In this document: one piece after another, positions 9,089 through 20,976 of the stretch
Numbering within the stretch: position 1 is the stretch's first letter
Layout of the letters: each line of letters opens with the position of its first letter
IMG/VR virus record: IMGVR_UViG_3300037153_000249
Location: 1 to 21,400 of that record
Origin: a virus
Strand: one strand, 5' to 3'
Length of the DNA stretch: 21,400 bases
The notes under the pieces: model-generated
Database searches by the model: none
Told to the model about the DNA's origin: nothing
The model's input: the letters and a program-made list of their open reading frames with translations, nothing else
Made by a program: the position numbers and the translations under genes

Positions 9089-9595
9089 GTGGGGTTCGCG
9101 ACGGTCGGGCAACGGGCGCAGGTCCTGCCGGCCCGGTTCGGCGTGCGCTTCTGGCGGCGCGTGGCCCCCGCGAATCGCCGCGGTTGTCGGCTCTGGCGCG
9201 GGGCGCGGAACAAGGGCGGGTACGGGGTGCTCGTCGTCGGGGGCGTCTTCTGGCTGGCGCATCGCGCGGCCTGGACCCTCGCCCATGGGCCGATCCCCGC
9301 GGGGCTCCTGGCGTGCCACCACTGCAACGTGCCGCTGTGCTGTGAGCCCACGCATCTGTTTCTCGGGACGCAAGTCGACAGCATGGCCGAGATGGCGGCC
9401 AAAGGGCGGCGCCGCAGCACACGGGGCACGACGTACCGGCGCGCGAACCGGCTGACCGTGAAGGCGGTGCGCGCCATCCGGCGTGCCCATCAGACCGGGC
9501 GGGTGTCGGCGGCAGGCTTGGCCCGGCACTGGGCCGTCACGGAGCGCACCATCTGGCACATCGTGCGGCGCCAGACCTGGCCGACCATTTCTTGA
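9089..9595 (+). CDS. HNH homing endonuclease with C-terminal DNA-binding helix-turn-helix
   Basis: This 168-aa protein has an HNH nuclease core. HRAAWTLAHGPIPAG begins at His58, followed by CHHCNVPLCCEPTHLFLG with Cys76, His77, His78, Cys79, Cys84, Cys85 and His89, then DSMAEMAAKGRR. This is the layout of phage free-standing HNH endonucleases of the I-HmuI-like/HNH_3 type: the His pair and Asn form the nuclease site, and Cys residues may hold zinc. Residues about 120-165 (RLTVKAVRAIRRAH, then SAAGLARHWAVTERTIWHIV) form a helix-turn-helix for site recognition. The GTG at 9089 lacks a clear ribosome-binding site; GTG 9143 (VRFWRRVAP) is a reasonable alternative start, since many relatives begin there. 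The gene is inserted between tail terminator and glycosyltransferase, as a mobile gene would be. Confidence 0.8.
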   Translation: MGFATVGQRAQVLPARFGVRFWRRVAPANRRGCRLWRGARNKGGYGVLVVGGVFWLAHRAAWTLAHGPIPAGLLACHHCNVPLCCEPTHLFLGTQVDSMAEMAAKGRRRSTRGTTYRRANRLTVKAVRAIRRAHQTGRVSAAGLARHWAVTERTIWHIVRRQTWPTIS

Positions 9596-9657
9596 TTCCG
9601 AAGGCCCTTCGGGGAACGAAGCGCCCCGTGGTCAGTCCGCGGGTCCATGTTCGTCGC

Positions 9658-9690
9658 GCCGGCCTGGGGAGCGAGACTGCCCAGGCCGGC
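9658..9690 (+). promoter_or_regulatory. Strong stem-loop in the HNH-glycosyltransferase gap
   Basis: GCCGGCCTGGG (9658-9668) pairs perfectly with CCCAGGCCGGC (9680-9690): 11 bp, almost all G-C, with an 11-nt loop. It lies 17 nt before the glycosyltransferase ATG at 9708. No T-run follows, so it is not a standard intrinsic terminator. It could limit read-through, protect the downstream mRNA or control access to the start codon. Confidence 0.55.
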
Positions 9691-9707
9691 CCCTCCTCCG
9701 AGGCCGC

Positions 9708-10763
9708 ATGAAGCTCGCCTGGGCGTCCCACGGCATCGAGCACGGCAACGCCTTCGGCTACTACCAGGCCAACGAGGAGCTGGCCCGCGGCTTCGTCGCG
9801 GCCGGCGGCACCATCGATCCGGCGGCCCACCTCGTCATGCAGCTCACGTATGCGCCGCTCTTTCAGCGCTTCCCGGCCCCGTACTCGAACATCCTGATGA
9901 CGATGTACGAGAACGAGGAGACGCCGCTCTCGTTCCAGAAGGCCCTCCAGCGGCCCGACCTGATCCTCGTGCCGACCGAGTGGAACCGGGAGGTCTTCGC
10001 GCGGCACACGGCCGTGCCGATCCGCGTCGTGCCGCTGGGCGTCGACCTCGATGCGTGGCCCGGCATCATTCGCCCGCGCGCGCGCCGCCGGCCGTTCCGC
10101 TGGCTCTGGTCGGGCGCGCACAACCCGCGCAAGGGCTGGCGCCACGTCGCGGCCGCCTGGAAAGAGGGCCGGTTCTATCTGCGGCCGGACTGCGAGCTGT
10201 ACCTCAAGTCGACCGAGGTCGATCCGGTGCTGTTCGAGGAGGCGCACTCGGCCGTGACGCCGCGGCCGACCGTCGACCAGATGATGCGGGTCCGGCGCGT
10301 CGGCAACGTGATCTTCGACAGCCGGCGCGTGTCGCACCTCGACCTGCTCGCGATCTACGCCGAGGCCGACGCGTTCGTCTTCCCGTCGATGGGCGAAGGC
10401 TGGGGATTGACGCTGCTCGAAGCGATGGCGACCGCGCTGCCGTGTGTGGCGACGGTGGCGACGGGGCAGCAGGAGTTTGCGGCCGGCGTCGTGCGGCCGG
10501 TCGACTGGACGCTGCGGCCGACTGCGGTGCGCGACGGCCGGCACGGCCCCTGGCTGGAGGAGCACGTCTGCGACGCCTCCATCCCCGACCTCATTCGGCA
10601 GATGGAGTGGATCATGGAACACCCGGCGAAGGCGAAGCGACTCGGGCTCGCCGCGCATCGGCGGGCGCAACGCTATGGCTGGGCCGCTGCCGGGCAGCGC
10701 TTGCTCGCCGTGCTGCGGGAACACTTCGAGACCGCCGCCCCGGCGGCGTCGTGTGGAGGATAA
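9708..10763 (+). CDS. GT-B glycosyltransferase (family 4-like) within the structural operon
   Basis: This 351-aa protein has a GT4-type C-terminal domain. RWLWSGAHNPRKGWRHV (residues about 131-147, with the donor-binding R/K pair) is followed by SHLDLLAIYAEADAFVFPSM, then EGWGLTLLEAMATALPCV, in which Glu230 and Glu238 form the E-x7-E motif, and GQQEFA. The N-terminal domain (WASHGIEHGNAFGYYQANEE, YENEETPLSFQKALQRPDLI, PTEWNREVF) is the acceptor side. The full domain length is present and no frameshift is seen. ATG 9708 is chosen because recognisable fold starts there (MKLAWASHG); the frame is open to 9483 but that part overlaps HNH antiphase. The gene lies next to the tail tube gene, so modification of a virion protein is a plausible role. 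Modification of host surface glycans is the alternative. Sugar and acceptor are not predictable. Confidence 0.8.
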   Translation: MKLAWASHGIEHGNAFGYYQANEELARGFVAAGGTIDPAAHLVMQLTYAPLFQRFPAPYSNILMTMYENEETPLSFQKALQRPDLILVPTEWNREVFARHTAVPIRVVPLGVDLDAWPGIIRPRARRRPFRWLWSGAHNPRKGWRHVAAAWKEGRFYLRPDCELYLKSTEVDPVLFEEAHSAVTPRPTVDQMMRVRRVGNVIFDSRRVSHLDLLAIYAEADAFVFPSMGEGWGLTLLEAMATALPCVATVATGQQEFAAGVVRPVDWTLRPTAVRDGRHGPWLEEHVCDASIPDLIRQMEWIMEHPAKAKRLGLAAHRRAQRYGWAAAGQRLLAVLREHFETAAPAASCGG

Positions 10764-10766
10764 GCG

Positions 10767-11768
10767 ATGGCGAACTACATGCTCACCCGCCGGACCGTCA
10801 TCACGGCGAAGAAGGAGACCGTGGAGGGCACCGATTCGGCCCCGACCCCGACGACGGATGCGATCCTCGCCGTCAATCCGACCGTCGAGATGCGCGGCAA
10901 TCCGGTCAACCGCCCGATCGTAACGCAGACGTTCTCGAAGCTCGGGCAGGTGATCGGCACCCGCTCGGGGCAGATCAGCTTCGGGACGGAGTATCGCGGC
11001 ATTGACGCGATCCCGAGTGCGGCCTCGCCGCTGGCCGAGAATCCGCTGTTCCTCGCCTGCGGCATGAGCCCGACGTACGCGGCGTCGAGCGCGATCTACA
11101 AACCGCTCACGGACTTCGGCGCGACCGTGAACAGCGTCACGATCTGGGCCTACCTCGATGGCCTGCTGCACGCCTTCAACGGCTGCCGCGGGTCGTTCTC
11201 GTTCGATGCCACGGTCGGCGCGATTCCGACGTACCAGTGGACCTTCCAGGGGACCTTCACGGCGATCAACCTGTCCCCGACCGGCACGGACGGTGTCCGC
11301 GACGTCACCTTCCCAGCAAGCGTCACCTACCAGGCGTACAGCGTGCAGCCGCCCATGGCGCTCGGCGCGACGCTCACGGCCTACGGCTACAGCGCCGTCG
11401 CCCGCCAGATCACGTTCGACATGAAGAACGACGTGCAGGGCCGGGAATCCCTGGCGGCCCCGAACGGGCTCGTCTCGTACTACATCAACGGCCGCGATCC
11501 GGGCGGCACGCTCGATCCGGAAGCCGTCACGCGTGGCACGTCGGACTTCTGGTACCGCTGGGTCTCCGCGGCGAAGGGCGCGATCAGCTTTTCGCTCGGG
11601 CAGCCGGTGGCGAGCGGCGACGGCAAGGTGCAGTTCGATGCGCCGGCCGTGCAGCTCGGCGCGATGACCTACGCCGACCGCAACGGCATCCGGAACTTCA
11701 ACATGCCCTATAGCTGCGCGGGCAACACGACCGCGGGCGACGACGAGGTGACGATCACCTACTCGTGA
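10767..11768 (+). CDS. Major tail tube protein
   Basis: This 333-aa protein starts at ATG 10767 with GGAGGA at 10756-10761. The N-terminus has the tail tube pattern KKETVEGTDSAPTPTTDAIL, then NPTVEM. It continues with a G-x-I-S-F-x-T-E-Y-R-G strand, NPLFLACGMSPTY, and a strand block SVTIWAYLDGLLHAFNGCRG with FSFDATVG. 'ETxxGTdsxPT ... AIL ... NPtvE', 'LfLACGM' and 'DGxxhxfxGcRG' are typical of siphovirus major tail proteins that stack as hexamers around the tape measure. Repeated strand-turn patterns in the second half suggest an extra domain on the tube surface. It precedes the chaperone pair and tape measure as expected. It may also be the acceptor of the adjacent glycosyltransferase (inference). 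Confidence 0.8.
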   Translation: MANYMLTRRTVITAKKETVEGTDSAPTPTTDAILAVNPTVEMRGNPVNRPIVTQTFSKLGQVIGTRSGQISFGTEYRGIDAIPSAASPLAENPLFLACGMSPTYAASSAIYKPLTDFGATVNSVTIWAYLDGLLHAFNGCRGSFSFDATVGAIPTYQWTFQGTFTAINLSPTGTDGVRDVTFPASVTYQAYSVQPPMALGATLTAYGYSAVARQITFDMKNDVQGRESLAAPNGLVSYYINGRDPGGTLDPEAVTRGTSDFWYRWVSAAKGAISFSLGQPVASGDGKVQFDAPAVQLGAMTYADRNGIRNFNMPYSCAGNTTAGDDEVTITYS

Positions 11769-11841: not shown

Positions 11842-11865
11842 TCGCGCCAGCGACGGAGGTTGCGC

Positions 11866-12351
11866 ATGATCCGCGGGAAGATTCAGGGCAAGATCCGCGA
11901 GTACGTCCTCAAGGAGGACCGCGGGAATCCGGCCGAGGAGCAGACCGTGTTCCTCTACCAGCTCCTCAAGGCCGACGATGCCTGGAACATCCAGGACGGC
12001 GTGATGGAGCACATCGTCCCGCAGGGCGGCAAGGATGCCGACGTGCGGACGATCGTGCACAACGGGCGCTCGCAGAAGGCGGCGCTGCTGCGCGGCCTGG
12101 TCGGCGTCCGCAACATGCAGGACGAAGACGGCAACCCGGTCGTCTTCACGACGCCGAAGGACAAGGCCGGCCAGATGCAGGTGATCGACATGCTCGACAA
12201 CAAGCAGCGCGTCGAGCTGGCGAACGCCATTCTGGGCGACGCGGACCTGACGCCGGCTGAAAAGGGAAACTCGCTTTCGCAGTCTGGGCCTCTCTCGTCG
12301 GAGGCAAAGACTGCGGATACCGAGACCCCGCAACCTGTGGCTGCCGCCTAA
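11866..12351 (+). CDS. Tail assembly chaperone, short form (G-like)
   Basis: This 161-aa protein starts at ATG 11866 with GGAGG at 11855-11859; an in-frame TTG at 11860 is not needed. The layout matches tail assembly chaperone G proteins: an N-terminal strand/helix domain (KIREYVLKEDRG, TVFLYQLLKADDAW), a middle region (LLRGLVGVRNMQDEDGNPVV), then RVELANAILGDADLTPAEKG. 'ELAnaIl...LTpaEkgNS' just before a frameshift site is typical of this family. After the slip site at 12261-12267 the zero frame encodes only a Ser/Thr/Ala-rich tail of about 28 residues. The G and G-T forms together are needed for tube assembly around the tape measure in lambda-like phages. Confidence 0.8.
   Translation: MIRGKIQGKIREYVLKEDRGNPAEEQTVFLYQLLKADDAWNIQDGVMEHIVPQGGKDADVRTIVHNGRSQKAALLRGLVGVRNMQDEDGNPVVFTTPKDKAGQMQVIDMLDNKQRVELANAILGDADLTPAEKGNSLSQSGPLSSEAKTADTETPQPVAAA
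12261..12317 (+). promoter_or_regulatory. Programmed -1 ribosomal frameshift signal
   Basis: The heptamer A-AAG-GGA (12261-12267) sits in the zero frame of the G-like gene as X-XXY-YYZ, so both Lys and Gly tRNAs can re-pair after a -1 slip. Eight bases later begins a hairpin. 12276-12285 pairs with 12308-12317 (10 bp, including perfect CGCAGTCT/AGACTGCG and one G-U). Inside it are a GG/AA internal loop, then GCCTC (12288-12292) with GAGGC (12301-12305), and a short loop. The -1 frame is open from there to 12647. Slip site, spacer and stimulator all fit the standard model. Confidence 0.85.
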
Positions 12352-12647
12352 CGCCGCAGCTCGTCAACTACTCCGTGGAGGAGCCGGACCCTGACCATCC
12401 TGGCCGCACCAAGATGGTCGTCAAGTTCGGGTGTCCCTTGGAGGGGATCACGGACGATGCCCACCACTGGATGATGCTCTACGGGCACTACAAGAACGGC
12501 TTTCTCCTGCACGCGGGCGGGATCGGAGACCAGCCCTATCGGTACGTCTCGGCCATGGCGACGCTCGATGCCGAGTTCGCCAAGGTGCTCCGCGACGAGC
12601 GGGCGAAGCAGGAGGAGGCCGCGGCGCGCGCGGCCGGGGGGCGGTAG
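12267..12647 (+). CDS. Tail assembly chaperone T-domain, expressed by -1 frameshift (G-T fusion)
   Basis: After a -1 slip at 12267 the frame runs 126 codons to TAG 12645-12647, giving a G-T fusion of about 260 residues (134 from G). The T part begins KLAFAVWASLVGGKDCGYRD, then PATCGCRL with three Cys, then a domain with EEPDPDHPGRTKMVVKFGCP, HHWMMLYGHYKNGFLL and a helical C-terminus. A free-standing start at GTG 12375 exists but has no ribosome-binding site and would delete the Cys segment, so expression by frameshift is preferred. The Cys cluster right after the slip site recurs in tail chaperone fusions as I recall them, possibly a zinc-binding knuckle. The fusion probably recruits the tape measure to the tube. 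It ends 4 nt before the tape measure start. Confidence 0.8.
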   Translation, partial: KLAFAVWASLVGGKDCGYRDPATCGCRLTPQLVNYSVEEPDPDHPGRTKMVVKFGCPLEGITDDAHHWMMLYGHYKNGFLLHAGGIGDQPYRYVSAMATLDAEFAKVLRDERAKQEEAAARAAGGR

Positions 12648-12651
12648 GTAG

Positions 12652-15600
12652 GTGGCACTCGAACTGACCGTCGTCATCCGCGCGCGCGAGGAGCTGACCA
12701 AGGTCGCGCAGCAGGCCGCGGCCGCCGTCAAATCGTTCGCGACGACGGCGGGCCAGGACGTCGGCAAGGTCGGCGCGGCCGGCCAGGTCTCTGCGGCCGC
12801 GTTCGCGGAAGCCTGGAAGCAGGTCGCGGCCGGCGTGAAAGAGAGCGCGGGCGAGACGGCCGAGAGCTTCGATCGCACGCGCGAGACGACCACGAAGCTG
12901 ATCGAGGGCGTCAAGGCGCTGCACGACGTCTGGATGACCTCGGGCAAGGCCGCGACCGATGGCGCGACGGCGACCAGCGAGGCCATGGCGGCGACCGGCG
13001 CCAAGACCGAGAGCATGCTCGCGGCGCTCAAGGGCGGGGCGAGCGATGCCGGGGGCGCGCTCGGCAAGCTCGCCACCGACTTCTTGACGAGCGAGGCCGG
13101 CGCGGCGGCGCTCTCAGGCGGCGTCGCGACGCTCATCACCGTCTTCGGGGCGGGCGTGAAGGCGGCCCTGGAGTTCGACGAGTCTCTCCAGGGGCTCCAC
13201 GCGACGACCATGGCCAGCGCGCAAGAGCTGGAGGTGCTGCGCGAGGCCGCGATCAAGATGTCGAGCGAGTCGACGCTCTCGTTCACGCAGGTCGTGCAGG
13301 CGATGGAAGCCGTCGCCCAGCAGCGGCCCGAGCTGGCGGCGAGCGGCGCGGCCCTGGCCGAGATGACCGAGCAGGTCGTCAAACTCTCCGAGGCGACCGG
13401 GACGGATCTGCGCCAGTCGACCAAGGTGACGACGGAGGTGCTGGGGCAGTTCGGGCTCACGGCGGATGACGCGGGCCGGGTCGTCAACGTGCTCGCGGCC
13501 GCGTCGGCCAAGGGGGCGGCGAGCGTCGAGCAGATCGGGGCGATCCTCGCGCGCACGGGCACGGCCGCGCACGGGGCGGGGCTCTCGTTCGAGGAAACGG
13601 CGGCGGCGCTGGAGATTCTCGCCAACTCGCACATTCCCACCTACCGGGCCGGCAACGCGCTGATCGAGGTGCTGCTCAAGCTGCAATCGGGCGCGCAGGA
13701 GACGAATCCGGCCATCGTCGGCCTCGGCACCGCGCTCGACAATCTCGCCAAGCAGCAGCTCTCGGCGGCCGACATCGCGGCCAAGTTCGGCCAGACGGCC
13801 GTCCCGGTCGTCCAGGCACTCCTCGCGCAGCGGGAGCAATTCAGAGCCCTCGTGCCCGCGATCACGGACACGACCGCGGCCGAGGACCAGGCGCGCATCC
13901 GGACCGACACACTGGCCGACACGCAGCAGAAGCTGCGTAACTCGATCGTCGACCTGGCCGCAGCCTGGGGGCAGCCGTTCGTCGACACCATCAAAGCCGC
14001 AGATCGCACGCTCGCGGACTTCGCCGCGCAGCAGGCGCAAACGGCCAACAGTCTCGCGCGCGGTCCGCAGTCGATCGCGCAGTTCGACGCGGCCATCGAG
14101 CAGCTCCAGCAGCGCTTGGCCCAGGTGCAGGCGGCGCCCGGCATCCCGGCGCTGGGGGCCATCACGCCCGGCGTCAATACCGGGGAGCTGGAGAAGCAGA
14201 TCGCGGCGCTGCAGCAGCAGCGGGCCGCGCTCCTCGCCGGGCAAGACGCCGTCGAGCAGTACAACACGGCGCAGAAAGCGCTGACGGCGCAGCAGGCGCG
14301 GACGAACATCGCAGCCGGCGAGGTCAACCGGATCCTCGGCACCGACTTCGTCAAGGCGGCGCAGGCCGCGCTCGAACACTCGCGCGACCTCGCCCGCGTG
14401 GGCGTGCAGACGGAGCAGGGCTTCAAGGTCGCGTCGCTGGCGGCAAACGAGCTGGCGCTCCGGGAGCGGGAAGCGGCTGACGGGGCGATCATCCTCGCGC
14501 GGGGACTGTCGCAGATCACGACGCAAGCGCTCGCGCGTGACTTCCGGCAGCTCGCGGACGCGGTCCGCGCATCGCTCGAAGGCGCGAAAGCGCTCGTCAT
14601 CGACTTCCAGCACGAGACCGTGACGCTGGCGCAGCAGATCGCGTCCTACGGCACCCGGGCCGAGCGGCAGGCGGCGGACATCGCGGCGATCCGCGACAAA
14701 GCGAGCCAGGAGGCTCAGAAGACCGGCACGCAGACCGCGGACCAACTGCGGGAAATCGACGCCCGGCTCAAGGAGATTGCCGAGACGCAGGCGGGCCTCA
14801 AGACGCTGCAAGAGGCGCCCCGCATCACGATCCCGGTCGAGGTCAAATTCGAGGGGACCGGGCCGCTCGCGAACCTTGGCAAGCCGGGGGCGGGTCCCGT
14901 CATCTTGCCGCCCATCGAGCAGCCAGTGAAGTTCACGGGCGCCGGCCCCACGTCGACCGATCCGCAGGCGCTGCAGGCAGAAAAACAAGTCCTCGAAACG
15001 AAGCGCGCGGAGCTGCTCGTCGGCCGCGATCAGGTCCAGAACCTCGACCAGCAGAAGGCCGACCTGGCCGTGGCGGCCCGGCAGTACAGCGACATCAAGA
15101 CGACCGCGGACCAGGCGCTGCAGACACAGAATGCCGGGCTGACGACGCGCGAGTCCGAGCTGCGCACGCTGCTCGAACAGGCCCACTCCGAGGAGAAGGT
15201 CGCCCAGACGCAGGACCAGCGCGAGGCGATTCTGCGGAACGTCCAGAGCCTCGAAGATCAGTTGAAGGCGGTCTCGGCCGACAAGCTGCGGAACGAGATT
15301 GCGTCGCTGGAGAATCTGCAGAAGCAGGCGGCCGCGATCCAGGTCATCTCGCGCGATGCCCAGGGCAAGCCGATTACCATCTCGGTCCGGCTGAGCGGCG
15401 CGATCGAGGATCTGCAGCACATCATCGACCTGCGGCGGCAAGAGCTGACGGCAGCCGAGCAGGTGACGACGCAGGAGACGAAGGACAACGCGATCCTGGC
15501 GACGCGCCAGCAGGACAATGCCCGGCTGCTCCAGAACGCGGTCCAGCAAGCGGCCACCGACGCGAACGCGGCCAAGGCGCAGATCGATCAGCACACGCAG

Positions 15601-18600
15601 ATTCTCCAGCTCGGGCTGCAGGAGGAGACGAGCGTCACCGTCCGCCAGTCGATCCAGCACGCGATCATCGACGACGCGCGGAAGAAGCTGGCGATCGACA
15701 CGCAGTCGCTCCAGACGCAGATCGCGCTGAACCAGGCCGCGCTCCAGAACAATCAGCTCGCGGCGCCGGCCCGCGAGCAGGCCGAGCGGAACCTGCGGGC
15801 CGAGCAGGCGCAGCTCGCGACCCTGGCCGGGCAGAACGCGGTGCTCGACAAGCAGGATGAGCACGTCAAGCAGCTCGGGCAGGACACCGCGCAGGTCGGC
15901 CGCGATTTGGAGTCCGCGCTCGGGGACCTCGGCAGCGGGCTCATCTTCGGCAAGGCGACCGATGCCTTCAAGAGCTTCCGCGACTCGGGCGTCAACATCC
16001 TGAAGGAGATCTTCACCTCGACGCTCAAGAACAAGCTGGGGTTCGAGGAGGCGGTCAACCGCAACCTGTTCACGGACAAAGACGGGCTCGTGCACTCGTT
16101 CACGACCGCCTTCGGGCTCATCAAGGACACAGGCGACAAGACGCTGCCGAAGGTCGCGGACAGTGCGAAGCAGGCGGCCGACGAGGTGGGGCCGCCGTTC
16201 GAGGCCGCCGCGAAGCAGGTGGGCGATTCCGCGCAGACGGCGCAGAGCGGCTGGGCGACGTTCTTCAGCTTCCTGGAGGACACGGGCAAGAGCGTGTTCG
16301 ACAAGCTGGTCTCGTTCGCGGAGGGCTTTCTCAAGCTGCTCGGGTCCGGCGGCAGCTCGATCGTCGGCGGGCTCACGAATCTCGCCACCTGGGTCGGCGG
16401 GCTCTTTAGTGGCGGCGGCGGTGCGGCCGGGGTCGCCGCGGCCGCGCAAGGGGGCGCCGGGGGCGGCGCCGGGGGGGCCATCATCACGGGCGGCAACCTC
16501 CTCGGGGCGAGTGGCTTCATTGCCAAGCAGCTCGCCGGGGCGCTCTCGGCCACGCCGCTCGGGTCGACCATGTCGACCATCAGCTCGACGCTCACGAACC
16601 TCGTGTCCGTGATCGGGCCGATCCTGTCCTTGGCAGGTGGCATCTTCGGGCTCGTGAAGGGCGGCGGGGGCTTCCTCGGGACCGCGCTGTCGGGGATCGG
16701 CGTCCTGGGAGGCATCCAGGGGCTCACAGGAGCCGCTGTGAGCGCGTTCCCGGCCCTGGTCGGGCCAGGGGCCATCTTCGGGCCTGGGACGGCCGCTAGC
16801 CCGCTCCTGACGGCCCTTGCGAACATCTTTGGCGCGAACATCGCCGGGCCGACTGTCGGGGCGGCCGGGATCGCCTCCCAAATCCCGGTCATCGGGCCGG
16901 TGCTCGATGCGCTGGTGAGCGCCATCCAGTCGGCTATCAGCGCGATCACCGGGGTCGTGGGCGGCCTCGGGGGCGGGGCGCTTGGCGGCGCTCCAGCCGC
17001 CGCGGCGGCCGGCGCAGCGGGGGGCGGCGTTGCGGGCGCCGCTGCTGGGGCCGGGATCGGGGCCGCGCTGGCGGGCTCGGCGCTAGGTGCCCTCGGCCTG
17101 CAACATCTGCTGGCCGCCGGGGACGAGGGGAAGATCGTCGGCATGACGGGCAAGGCGTCCCTGGCGCAGGGAGCGAGCCTGGGCATCGTCGCCGGCCCGC
17201 AGCTTCTGGCCGCCGGGAACACGACGGCGGGGCTCGCAACGCTCCTCATCTCGATCATTGGCGGGCCGATCGGAGAGATCATCAACAAGGTCCTCGTCTC
17301 GGTCGGGATCGATCTGTTCGGCCTGACCGAGACGGTTACGGAACATCTGCGGCATGTGTTCGCGGATCAGGTCAAAGAGGCCACCGGCAAGACCATCCAA
17401 GGCACGACGCTCAAGGCCAGCGCCCGCACGTTCTTTGGTGGCGGCGTCGGGACCGGCACGGCGCTCGATGTCCTCGGGGGGGCGGCCGTGGGGGCGCTCA
17501 GCACGCGCGGGACCGCGCCCAGCCTCGAACAACTCCGGGGCGAGTTCACGGGCGCGCTCGGCAACCTGCTGCCGACGAAGAAGCCGGCCGAGGAGGTCGA
17601 TGCCGCGTTCCGGAAGCTGACGACGCAGCTCTACGGCGGGATGCTGCCGACGCTGCAGCTCTGGAACACCTACCTGAAAGACTCCACCGCGCTCACGAAG
17701 GGCGACATCACCGACAAGCAGTTCTTGAAGCGGGTGAGTGCCGCCGGGGACTTCGGCAAGAAGTTCCAGCCGGACATCCCCGAGAGCGTCGGGATCAACC
17801 TCGCGACGATCTTCGAGAAGGCCGTGACGGCCAAGGGGATCGACGTGAAGCAGATCCGCGAGGCCATCGAGGGGCCGCTGCTCGACGCGATGGCGAAGGG
17901 GCAGGGACCGACGCAGAAGGAGCTGCGGCAGTTGGGCGACCGGATGACGCTCACCGTGGCCGCCATCGGCAAGGTGACGGGCGATCCGAAGAAGGCGGCG
18001 GCCGATGCGGCGGCGCTGGTGGCGGCGAACCCGGAGATTACCGCGCGCCAGGTGCAGCGGGCGCTCATCGAGAAGGAAAACCTGACGCCGACGCGCCAGC
18101 TCGTGACGGCGGCCGGGCTCAAGCCCGAGGATGTCTCGCAATCGCTGCTCGACGCGCTCGAAAAGTTCGTCGGGCGGCAAGAGCGGCCGCGGCGCGAGCT
18201 GACGGAGCCCGAGAAGAAGCAGCGGGACCTGCGCGATCAGATCGCGGCCGACCTCCTCGGCGTCGTCCGCACGATTCACGACGCCATGACGCAGCTCGCG
18301 GCGACGATCGCCGGCACGCCGCTCCTCGGCCAGGTGAAGGCGTCGGCCGACGCGCTGGAGCGGGTGAAGACGCGCTTCACGCAGATCGAGCGCGACATTC
18401 CCCAGGCGAAGGGGAAGCGGCGCGAGCAGATGACGCAGGAGCTGGCGCAGCTCGAACAGCAGGCGGCGCAGGCGACCGCGCAGTGGGCCGATGCCGTGAG
18501 CCAGCTCATCGACCAGCTCAAGTCGACCGAGCGGTCCATCAGCGACTTCACCATCAAGAGCCGCGAGCAGCAGGACGCGCTCACGGGCGCGAACAACACC

Positions 18601-20976
18601 GCGGAGGTCTACAACCAGGCGCTCACCGACAACGGCGTGCTCTACCTGCACCTCGCCGCATCGGGCGGCAGTGCGGCGGCGCAGCTCGATGCCGTGAACC
18701 GGCAGATGGACCTGCTCTCGCAGAAGGCGCAGGCGCAGATCCAGGACATCCGCGACACGGTCGCGATGTACGAGAAGGAGATTGCGGCCGAGGCGAAGGT
18801 GCTGACCGATCGCCAGAAGGTGCTCGACGCGCAGGCCGAGGACATCCAGGAGCAGATCCAGCAGAAGCAATACCTCATCGAGGACGCGCAGGCGCGGCTT
18901 GCAGACAAGCAGGCGCTCATCGACGCGAAGCAGGCGCTCATCGACTCGGCGCAGGCCCGGCTCGACGAGAAGCAAGAGCTGATCGACCACAAGCAGCGGC
19001 TCATCGAGGATACGCAGGCCCGGCTCGACGAGAAGCAGGCGATCATCGACACGAAGCAGACGCGGCTCCAGGACCTCGCCGTCCGCCGCCAGGAGCTGCA
19101 GGACCGGGTCGACGTCATCAGCGCGATGGCGGGCATGGTCGACTCGCTCAAGCAGCAGCGCGATGCGCTGCAGGGCTCGGTTGCGGGCGGCGGCTTCCGC
19201 CAGCTCGCCATCACGCGCCAGCAGCTCGGGGAAGCGCTCGGAGCGTTCCAGCAGGCGAAGCCCGAGGATCAGGCGAAGGCGGCGGCCGAGGTGCAGCGGC
19301 TCGCCCAGCTCAGCGTCGAGCAGGGCGGCAAGCTGTTCGCCGCGGGCAGCCGCGACGCGGTGCGCGTGCAGCAGCAGGCGCTCGATGCGACCGAGCAGGT
19401 CTACGAGGTCGCGCAGAAGGCGGCCGACGAGCAGAAGGACCTGCTCGACAAGATCAAGACCATCGATGACGAGTCGAAGGGGCTGCAGAAGGACATCTAC
19501 GACGTCCAGGTCGCGATGCGCGCGGACCAGCAGCTCATCAAGGACTACAACAAAGATATTCGCGACATCCAGGTCTCGATGCGGCCCGACCAGGACCTCA
19601 TCAAGGGCTACCAGAAGGACATCCGCGACATCCAGACCGACATGAAGGCGGATCAGGACCTCATCAAGCAATACAACAAGGACATCTATGACCTGAACGT
19701 GCAGATGCGGCCGATCACGGAGGAGCAGCGGGACATCCAGAAGCGGCTGAAGGAGCTGGACGAGGCGCGCGCCGTCCTCGAATACAACGCGACGATCGCG
19801 ATCGACTCGATCAACCAGAAACTCGCCGCGCAGCTTGCCGTGTGGGCCAACAAGGTCGTCCCGCTGCTGCAGGCGCAAGCCGGCGCGATCCGCCAGGAGC
19901 TGTCCGACATTCTGCCGGCCGGGACGGACATCGATGCCCTGATGAACGATCCGGCATCGCTCCAGGCGTTCCTCGCGCGCGCGCAGCTCGAATCGATGCA
20001 GAACATCGAGGACTACGTCGAGGCGATTGCCGCGCTGCTGAAGGTGCCGGCCGTGACGCACCACCATCATCACGCCGCGGCCGGGGCCGTCATCACGGGG
20101 CCGACCGAGCTGCAGGCCGGCGAGGCCGGGCCGGAAGCGTTCATTCCGCTGACCGATCCGCGCGCGCGGCAATTCCTGGAGTCCATGCAATCGCCGGCCG
20201 CGGAGGCCGTGGGCGACCAGACCAGGCAGCTCGTCGAGCTGGCGGCCGCGCAGGACAAGCGGCTGGCGGACCTGAACGTGCGGACGGAGCGGCTCATCGC
20301 GCTCACGCAGCAGGGCCTCAAGGGCGTCACCCGGGACAGCGCCAGTGCCGCGGATGTCGCCATGCAGCAGCAGCAGCAGACGATGGTCGACCAACAGCAG
20401 AAGGGGCTCCAGACGACCCGCGAGCTGCGCGACCTCGTGCGCCAGCAGGCCACCGATACCCAGCGGCTGCGTGTGCTGGGCGAGGGGACGGCGCGGCTCG
20501 ATTACGTCTCCACGCTGACCATCACCTCCATGAACCGCCACCTGGTGCTGGACGTCCTGCCGATTCTGCGGAGCCAAGTCGCTGCGGTGGACCGCTTGGT
20601 GGCGACGACGGAGAAGGGCGTCCTGCCGATCCTGCAGCGCCAGCTCGCTGCGGCGGAGGCTGGCCCGAAGACGCATGCGGCGCAGGGCGCGATTGTCACG
20701 CAGCGCACGTTCCTCGAAGCGGGCGAGGCCGGCCCGGAAGCGGTCATTCCGCTGCGCGATGCGCGGGCGCGGCGCTGGCTGCGGGCGATCGAGGGCCGGG
20801 CCGAGCAGCCGGTGCAGCAGACGACGACGATCAACATCAGTCCGACGATCGTGGTGCCGGCGGCGCGGACGCCGCAAGAAGCGCAGCTCTACGGGCGCAC
20901 CGCGGCGACCGAGTTCGGCCGCCAACTGCAGCGCGAGTACCCGGGACTCGTCCGACGCGTGGGGGGGCAGCGGTAG
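12652..20976 (+). CDS. Tape measure protein (very long, 2774 aa)
   Basis: The gene begins at GTG 12652, close after the chaperone. The TP901-1-type tape measure core spans residues about 170-445 (LEFDESLQGLHATTMASAQE, LSFTQVVQAMEAVAQQ, LRQSTKVTTEVLGQFGL, LSFEETAAALEILA, DTQQKLRNSIVDLAAAWG). Residues about 470-1220 are Gln/Ala-rich coiled coil. Residues about 1240-1490 are Gly/Ala-rich and strongly hydrophobic (several membrane-helix-like stretches), the part expected to enter the host membrane. Residues about 1490-2060 are helical. Two arrays of 21-residue repeats lie at 2077-2139 and 2281-2364. Two copies of a GEAGPEA-x-IPL terminal module lie at 2490-2500 and 2691-2701. There is a natural His run (2470-2474) and no visible peptidase or lysozyme domain. 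It sets tail length and is ejected at infection. Confidence 0.9.
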   Translation: MALELTVVIRAREELTKVAQQAAAAVKSFATTAGQDVGKVGAAGQVSAAAFAEAWKQVAAGVKESAGETAESFDRTRETTTKLIEGVKALHDVWMTSGKAATDGATATSEAMAATGAKTESMLAALKGGASDAGGALGKLATDFLTSEAGAAALSGGVATLITVFGAGVKAALEFDESLQGLHATTMASAQELEVLREAAIKMSSESTLSFTQVVQAMEAVAQQRPELAASGAALAEMTEQVVKLSEATGTDLRQSTKVTTEVLGQFGLTADDAGRVVNVLAAASAKGAASVEQIGAILARTGTAAHGAGLSFEETAAALEILANSHIPTYRAGNALIEVLLKLQSGAQETNPAIVGLGTALDNLAKQQLSAADIAAKFGQTAVPVVQALLAQREQFRALVPAITDTTAAEDQARIRTDTLADTQQKLRNSIVDLAAAWGQPFVDTIKAADRTLADFAAQQAQTANSLARGPQSIAQFDAAIEQLQQRLAQVQAAPGIPALGAITPGVNTGELEKQIAALQQQRAALLAGQDAVEQYNTAQKALTAQQARTNIAAGEVNRILGTDFVKAAQAALEHSRDLARVGVQTEQGFKVASLAANELALREREAADGAIILARGLSQITTQALARDFRQLADAVRASLEGAKALVIDFQHETVTLAQQIASYGTRAERQAADIAAIRDKASQEAQKTGTQTADQLREIDARLKEIAETQAGLKTLQEAPRITIPVEVKFEGTGPLANLGKPGAGPVILPPIEQPVKFTGAGPTSTDPQALQAEKQVLETKRAELLVGRDQVQNLDQQKADLAVAARQYSDIKTTADQALQTQNAGLTTRESELRTLLEQAHSEEKVAQTQDQREAILRNVQSLEDQLKAVSADKLRNEIASLENLQKQAAAIQVISRDAQGKPITISVRLSGAIEDLQHIIDLRRQELTAAEQVTTQETKDNAILATRQQDNARLLQNAVQQAATDANAAKAQIDQHTQILQLGLQEETSVTVRQSIQHAIIDDARKKLAIDTQSLQTQIALNQAALQNNQLAAPAREQAERNLRAEQAQLATLAGQNAVLDKQDEHVKQLGQDTAQVGRDLESALGDLGSGLIFGKATDAFKSFRDSGVNILKEIFTSTLKNKLGFEEAVNRNLFTDKDGLVHSFTTAFGLIKDTGDKTLPKVADSAKQAADEVGPPFEAAAKQVGDSAQTAQSGWATFFSFLEDTGKSVFDKLVSFAEGFLKLLGSGGSSIVGGLTNLATWVGGLFSGGGGAAGVAAAAQGGAGGGAGGAIITGGNLLGASGFIAKQLAGALSATPLGSTMSTISSTLTNLVSVIGPILSLAGGIFGLVKGGGGFLGTALSGIGVLGGIQGLTGAAVSAFPALVGPGAIFGPGTAASPLLTALANIFGANIAGPTVGAAGIASQIPVIGPVLDALVSAIQSAISAITGVVGGLGGGALGGAPAAAAAGAAGGGVAGAAAGAGIGAALAGSALGALGLQHLLAAGDEGKIVGMTGKASLAQGASLGIVAGPQLLAAGNTTAGLATLLISIIGGPIGEIINKVLVSVGIDLFGLTETVTEHLRHVFADQVKEATGKTIQGTTLKASARTFFGGGVGTGTALDVLGGAAVGALSTRGTAPSLEQLRGEFTGALGNLLPTKKPAEEVDAAFRKLTTQLYGGMLPTLQLWNTYLKDSTALTKGDITDKQFLKRVSAAGDFGKKFQPDIPESVGINLATIFEKAVTAKGIDVKQIREAIEGPLLDAMAKGQGPTQKELRQLGDRMTLTVAAIGKVTGDPKKAAADAAALVAANPEITARQVQRALIEKENLTPTRQLVTAAGLKPEDVSQSLLDALEKFVGRQERPRRELTEPEKKQRDLRDQIAADLLGVVRTIHDAMTQLAATIAGTPLLGQVKASADALERVKTRFTQIERDIPQAKGKRREQMTQELAQLEQQAAQATAQWADAVSQLIDQLKSTERSISDFTIKSREQQDALTGANNTAEVYNQALTDNGVLYLHLAASGGSAAAQLDAVNRQMDLLSQKAQAQIQDIRDTVAMYEKEIAAEAKVLTDRQKVLDAQAEDIQEQIQQKQYLIEDAQARLADKQALIDAKQALIDSAQARLDEKQELIDHKQRLIEDTQARLDEKQAIIDTKQTRLQDLAVRRQELQDRVDVISAMAGMVDSLKQQRDALQGSVAGGGFRQLAITRQQLGEALGAFQQAKPEDQAKAAAEVQRLAQLSVEQGGKLFAAGSRDAVRVQQQALDATEQVYEVAQKAADEQKDLLDKIKTIDDESKGLQKDIYDVQVAMRADQQLIKDYNKDIRDIQVSMRPDQDLIKGYQKDIRDIQTDMKADQDLIKQYNKDIYDLNVQMRPITEEQRDIQKRLKELDEARAVLEYNATIAIDSINQKLAAQLAVWANKVVPLLQAQAGAIRQELSDILPAGTDIDALMNDPASLQAFLARAQLESMQNIEDYVEAIAALLKVPAVTHHHHHAAAGAVITGPTELQAGEAGPEAFIPLTDPRARQFLESMQSPAAEAVGDQTRQLVELAAAQDKRLADLNVRTERLIALTQQGLKGVTRDSASAADVAMQQQQQTMVDQQQKGLQTTRELRDLVRQQATDTQRLRVLGEGTARLDYVSTLTITSMNRHLVLDVLPILRSQVAAVDRLVATTEKGVLPILQRQLAAAEAGPKTHAAQGAIVTQRTFLEAGEAGPEAVIPLRDARARRWLRAIEGRAEQPVQQTTTINISPTIVVPAARTPQEAQLYGRTAATEFGRQLQREYPGLVRRVGGQR
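18880..19068 (+). repeat. Three 63-bp (21-residue) repeats in the tape measure, array A
   Basis: Residues 2077-2139 are three tandem 21-residue units beginning EDAQARLADKQ, DSAQARLDEKQ and EDTQARLDEKQ. Each equals three heptads of the form K-Q-x-L-I-D-x, so a continuous coiled coil is expected. Both DNA and protein repeat (for example GCCCGGCTCGACGAGAAGCA occurs twice), pointing to recent tandem duplication. Confidence 0.8.
19492..19743 (+). repeat. Four 63-bp (21-residue) repeats in the tape measure, array B
   Basis: Residues 2281-2364 are four tandem 21-residue units with starts DIYDVQVAMRADQ, DIRDIQVSMRPDQ, DIRDIQTDMKADQ and DIYDLNVQMRP. The first three end L-I-K-x-Y-x-K; the fourth has diverged (ITEEQRDIQK). 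The period is the same as array A but the sequence differs, so the two arrays arose separately or diverged long ago. Confidence 0.8.

Follow-up and report, generated by a model that had tools for sequence, protein, structure and literature searches.

A probable lambda-type -1 frameshift signal at the end of a tail assembly chaperone gene in a viral contig

Producing two versions of a tail chaperone through a -1 ribosomal slip is a well-known phage strategy. The G/GT tail assembly chaperone frameshift of lambda reportedly takes place on the slip site GGGAAAG, as Xu, Hendrix and Duda are said to have described in 2004. In Caulobacter phages, the chaperones encoded before the tape measure gene slip on AAAAAAC in phiCbK and on GGGAAAC in Colossus (PMC3556154). 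GGGAAAC and AAAAAAC are also the sites of HCTV-1 and HCTV-2 (PMC5009743). Both heptamers are thus already published for phage tail chaperones, and the signal described here is an ordinary case.

The window studied here is a viral contig of 21.4 kb, in which two overlapping frames, G and T, are found 3' of a tail tube gene and directly 5' of a tape measure gene (Table 1). The order tail tube, G, T and tape measure, the placement of T in the -1 frame and a heptamer of the form X_XXA_AAZ close to where G ends resemble lambda G/GT. Unlike in lambda, the heptamer ends in AAC rather than AAG, a strong stem follows it, T has four cysteines, and neither G nor T is detectably similar to known families. 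The chaperones of phiCbK and Colossus share identical slip heptamers and an identical role, and neither phage was retrieved as a sequence relative of T at the thresholds used. We consider it probable that the locus carries a programmed -1 frameshift of the lambda G/GT type, in which slippage occurs mainly on GGGAAAC and a stem follows 5 nt downstream. That a programmed -1 frameshift would join G to T is well supported, as gene order, the homologues, the missing start signal of T and the stem kept in the closest relative all point to it. An earlier sequence-only reading of the window had reached the same view of the frameshift, but the heptamer it chose as slip site, AAAGGGA, is probably wrong.

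Table 1 Features of the chaperone locus and its putative frameshift signal (positions in the 21.4 kb window)
Feature	Coordinates	Strand	Evidence and remarks
Major tail tube protein gene	10767..11768	+	Pfam Phage_tube_2 E 3e-13; PHROG 290 E 4e-18; upstream neighbour of G
Shine-Dalgarno GGAGG of G	11855..11859	+	Duplex with 16S tail -10.2 kcal/mol
G, tail assembly chaperone	11866..12351	+	161 aa zero-frame product; between tail tube and tape measure
A_AAG_GGA, first-proposed heptamer, possible secondary site	12261..12267	+	In phase; GAAGGGG in closest relative
G_GGA_AAC, likeliest slip heptamer	12264..12270	+	In phase; register matches AAAAAAC, GGGAAAC and AAAAAAG of relatives and GGGGGAA of L059
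T, extension read in the -1 frame, four conserved cysteines	12264..12647	+	Open frame; homologues
Spacer from GGGAAAC to stem, 5 nt	12271..12275	+	Equal length in L059
Two-part, putatively stimulatory stem-loop	12276..12317	+	Fold z = -3.55; eight outer pairs likewise present in L059
Tape measure protein gene	12652..20976	+	Hits to several tape measure PHROGs (lowest E 1e-33); PhageMin_Tail E 6e-29; downstream neighbour

The G frame runs from ATG 11866 to TAA 12351, and towards its end the zero-frame codons read GAA AAG GGA AAC TCG. As the sequence-only reading stated, A_AAG_GGA lies here in the correct zero-frame phase, is separated from the stem by 8 nt (12268-12275) and is followed by a -1 frame that stays open until TAG 12645-12647. 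All the features it had listed for a complete signal are present, but it overlooked a second in-phase heptamer, G_GGA_AAC, which overlaps the first by 4 nt and sits three bases downstream. The likely genes of the window amount to 5,924 codon positions, and an in-phase X_XXY_YYZ heptamer is found at 11 of them; nine of these repeat only G or C, as expected at the base composition of the window, and the other two are AAAGGGA and GGGAAAC, the latter occurring once on the + strand of the 21.4 kb. When codons were resampled synonymously, some heptamer arose at the slip position in about 16% of the trials, and the heptamer alone is therefore weak evidence. We regard as decisive the conservation of the slip site across relatives rather than the motif itself.

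Searches with the tail tube protein and T led to homologous loci in named phages and in three IMG/VR contigs. The phages are Agrobacterium phage JP1, whose G matches that of the window, Alteromonas phage P24, Microcystis phage Mae-JY22, the Rhizobium phages RHph_I4, L338C, P11VFA and RHph_TM16, and the Rhodobacter phages RcMenchie, RcTiptonus, RcDurkin and RcZahn, with Rhodobacter phage homologues carrying the annotation 'tail assembly chaperone'. Each of these loci has, where G ends, a canonical heptamer in phase, which is AAAAAAG for RcMenchie and its group and otherwise AAAAAAC or GGGAAAC; beyond it the -1 frame is open and encodes a homologous T. The -1 products begin with KKL or GKR, which match GKL in the window and thereby set the slip register. 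JP1, RHph_I4, L338C, RcMenchie, RcZahn and P24 share with the window a homologous cysteine-cluster T and an X_XXA_AAC or AAAAAAG heptamer in register, yet they are only ~20-30% identical, and several are without a strong stem. In addition, the same heptamers are found in S-CBS1, S-CBS3, S-LBS1 and RcapMu, which have related tail tubes and a different type of T, and the RcapMu record itself marks a potential -1 frameshift at the heptamer.

The closest relative found, IMGVR_UViG_3300031576_000021 (L059), is 60% identical to the window in the capsid protein, 48% in the tail tube, 44% in G and 37-41% in T. It is the one close relative found, and it was reached by a capsid search of viral_contigs, followed by a search for a tail tube gene in the records that matched. 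When G, T or the tail tube protein served as single queries against viral_contigs, no relatives were obtained; alignment scans recovered only the L059 contig, and scans of genome_contigs with T and the tail tube found nothing. L059 and L012 form one record of 88,217 bases with the capsid gene at its right end and the tail tube gene at its left. Such a layout points to a near-complete genome that is circularly permuted, in which case the window is probably a fragment.

At the slip site, L059 reads CAG AAG GGG GAA TCA CCT TCG CAG, which aligns without gaps to GAA AAG GGA AAC TCG CTT TCG CAG of the window. The position of AAAGGGA is occupied by GAAGGGG, a heptamer outside the canonical slip sites, and GGGAAAC is replaced, exactly in register, by the non-canonical heptamer G_GGG_GAA. 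In a survey of SEA-PHAGES genomes, GGGGGAA was the only sequence seen for the 'fivetwo' slip motif, about a thousand times; its slippage is explained by G-U re-pairing, and the motif is frequent in actinophages (PMC10885494). GGGAAAC with its 5-nt spacer is the likelier main slip site, as the relatives have canonical heptamers at the matching place and L059 has lost AAAGGGA and has GGGGGAA in register. Of the two elements on which the sequence-only reading had built, L059 lost the heptamer and kept the stem, in the same place as in the window. The remark that the heptamer of the window is of a less common type is probably mistaken as well, the GGGAAAC register being kept in homologues and GGGAAAC being a published phage slip site. 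When two slip heptamers overlap, reading one sequence by itself can lead to the wrong choice, and comparison with relatives can decide between them.

It could be speculated that both heptamers are used, the decamer AAAGGGAAAC offering two slip chances and giving two fusions that differ by one residue (K/N). While both heptamers are in phase and one stem is in reach of both, the first register (AAAGGGA) is not conserved, and the AAG (lysine) codon preceding GGA can be explained independently at the protein level, K or R being common there; dual use is thus unlikely. Quite unlikely, too, is the same frameshift taking place on A_AAG_GGA alone, with the 8-nt spacer and a junction EKGKL. This heptamer is in phase, its spacer lies in the usual range and both tRNAs would re-pair perfectly except at the wobble base, but it is not conserved: L059 differs, RHph_I4 and RcapMu keep GGGAAAC with other bases at the positions specific to AAAGGGA, and no report of AAAGGGA as a slip site was found in the literature searched.

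Separate initiation of T, with no frameshift, would have to start from GTG 12375, the first start codon after the slip in the T frame and the one at which, as foreseen by the sequence-only reading, ORF calling would begin the gene. The codon is available and gives 90 aa, and short T genes are annotated in relatives such as JP1 and L338C, with none called in P24. Yet we judge this reading very improbable. No Shine-Dalgarno is found before GTG 12375, unlike before G, the tail tube and the tape measure genes, and the duplex with the 16S tail is +1.1 kcal/mol here, whereas G reaches -10.2 and the tape measure gene -9.4. A T begun at GTG 12375 loses three of the four conserved cysteines, and at least three would be missing from a T that began at the first available start codon in the window, L059, JP1, P24, Mae-JY22, RcMenchie and L034. 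Moreover, the in-phase slip sites are conserved, whereas no T start codon is conserved among the relatives, the first available start varying in position. Finally, a sequencing or assembly error splitting one long G-T gene, conceivable in a metagenomic contig, is scarcely credible, as in at least 16 other records G and T also lie in two frames and the frame changes at the corresponding point. The homologues were thus the ground for rejecting both a separate start of T and an assembly error, and transcriptional slippage was set aside, the site having no long homopolymer run. As an annotation rule for this unannotated tail chaperone group, T should be taken to begin at the XXXAAAC slip and not at the first GTG, and calling T from the first GTG deletes the cysteine cluster.

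The stem-loop downstream of GGGAAAC bears out the two-part hairpin proposed earlier. The outer helix (12276-12285/12308-12317) has 10 bp including one U-G; a GG/AA internal loop separates it from the inner helix, which consists of five Watson-Crick pairs and a U-G. The RNA folding that the sequence-only reading had suggested, run on 12255-12340, gave -38.7 kcal/mol (z = -3.55), with none of 200 shuffles as stable, and the 50 nt after GGGAAAC rank 23rd in stability of 1,422 windows. In L059, the stem starts at the same base and has eight outer pairs in common with the window, while the inner helix is rebuilt using different bases and the whole is weaker, at z = -1.8 over 50 nt and z = -0.3 when an 86-nt frame is folded. 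In one outer pair both bases differ, U-A of the window being C-G in L059; pair-count shuffles on the two sequences, window and L059, were not significant. The double change is suggestive only, coming from two sequences with arms that also encode conserved residues in two frames, and protein constraint on these dual-coding arms could account for part of the conservation of the stem. Structure downstream of the heptamer is strong in the window, present but weaker in L059 and variable in distant relatives, with poor folding downstream of the slip in P24, Mae-JY22 and RcMenchie.

From these features we infer the occurrence and rate of frameshifting, the main use of GGGAAAC and the roles of the products, and the predicted course of events is as follows. 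Most ribosomes would translate G to its stop, while a minority would pause at the stem-loop with tRNA-Gly and tRNA-Asn on GGA AAC. Both tRNAs would then move back by one base and re-pair with GGG AAA, after which the -1 frame would be read to TAG 12647, giving a G-T fusion with the junction ...AEKGN-LAFAVW.... A slip on GGGAAAC would yield the junction EKGN-L and the tryptic peptide GNLAFAVWASLVGGK, and a slip on AAAGGGA the junction EKGK-L and the tryptic peptide LAFAVWASLVGGK preceded by GK, so that one tryptic peptide would separate the two slip sites. By analogy with lambda, G may serve to coat the tape measure protein, and recruitment of tail tube subunits may fall to the T part. In E. 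coli, A_AAA_AAC is far less shift-prone than A_AAA_AAG (PMC5009743). A slip site ending in AAC may accordingly be weak in some hosts.

The cysteine cluster noted earlier just after the slip proved to comprise four cysteines conserved across phages of several hosts. The T relatives of this type are JP1, P24, Mae-JY22, RHph_I4, L338C, RcMenchie, RcZahn, RHph_TM16, L034, L039 and L043, and in relatives the four cysteines are followed by G-x-L-x3-G and then Q. The cysteines are spaced CxxC...C...CP in most relatives and C-x7-C-x-C...CP in the window. G and T gave no match in PHROGs or Pfam, T gave no relevant match in NCBIfam, and an Rfam search returned nothing meaningful. A sequence match to a chaperone family is usual but not defining, as these proteins diverge fast. 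The AlphaFold model of T is of modest confidence (mean pLDDT 68.8), and as this is lowest across the first cysteines, the model cannot test metal binding; a Foldseek search of BFVD with it gave no match below E 0.001. The four conserved cysteines suggest metal binding, and we tentatively propose, as a possibility short of an even chance, that T is a four-cysteine metal-binding domain of an undescribed family, mainly in phages of Alphaproteobacteria, with the cysteine cluster only in the frameshift product.

Two further observations concern the neighbouring genes. The tape measure protein, at 2,774 aa, is very long and suggests a tail of ~400 nm if spanned as an extended helix. Positions 9089-10763, which separate the tail tube gene from that of the tail terminator, encode an HNH endonuclease and a glycosyltransferase of group 1, and genes of this sort are uncommon there. 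In RcZahn (MW677529.1), an in-phase AAAAAAC is found at 1501-1507, at the end of gene 27, and the -1 frame is open through gene 28. While the RcZahn paper states that a frameshift signal is not clearly evident in this phage (PMC8601537), the presence of AAAAAAC suggests that this statement should be revised.
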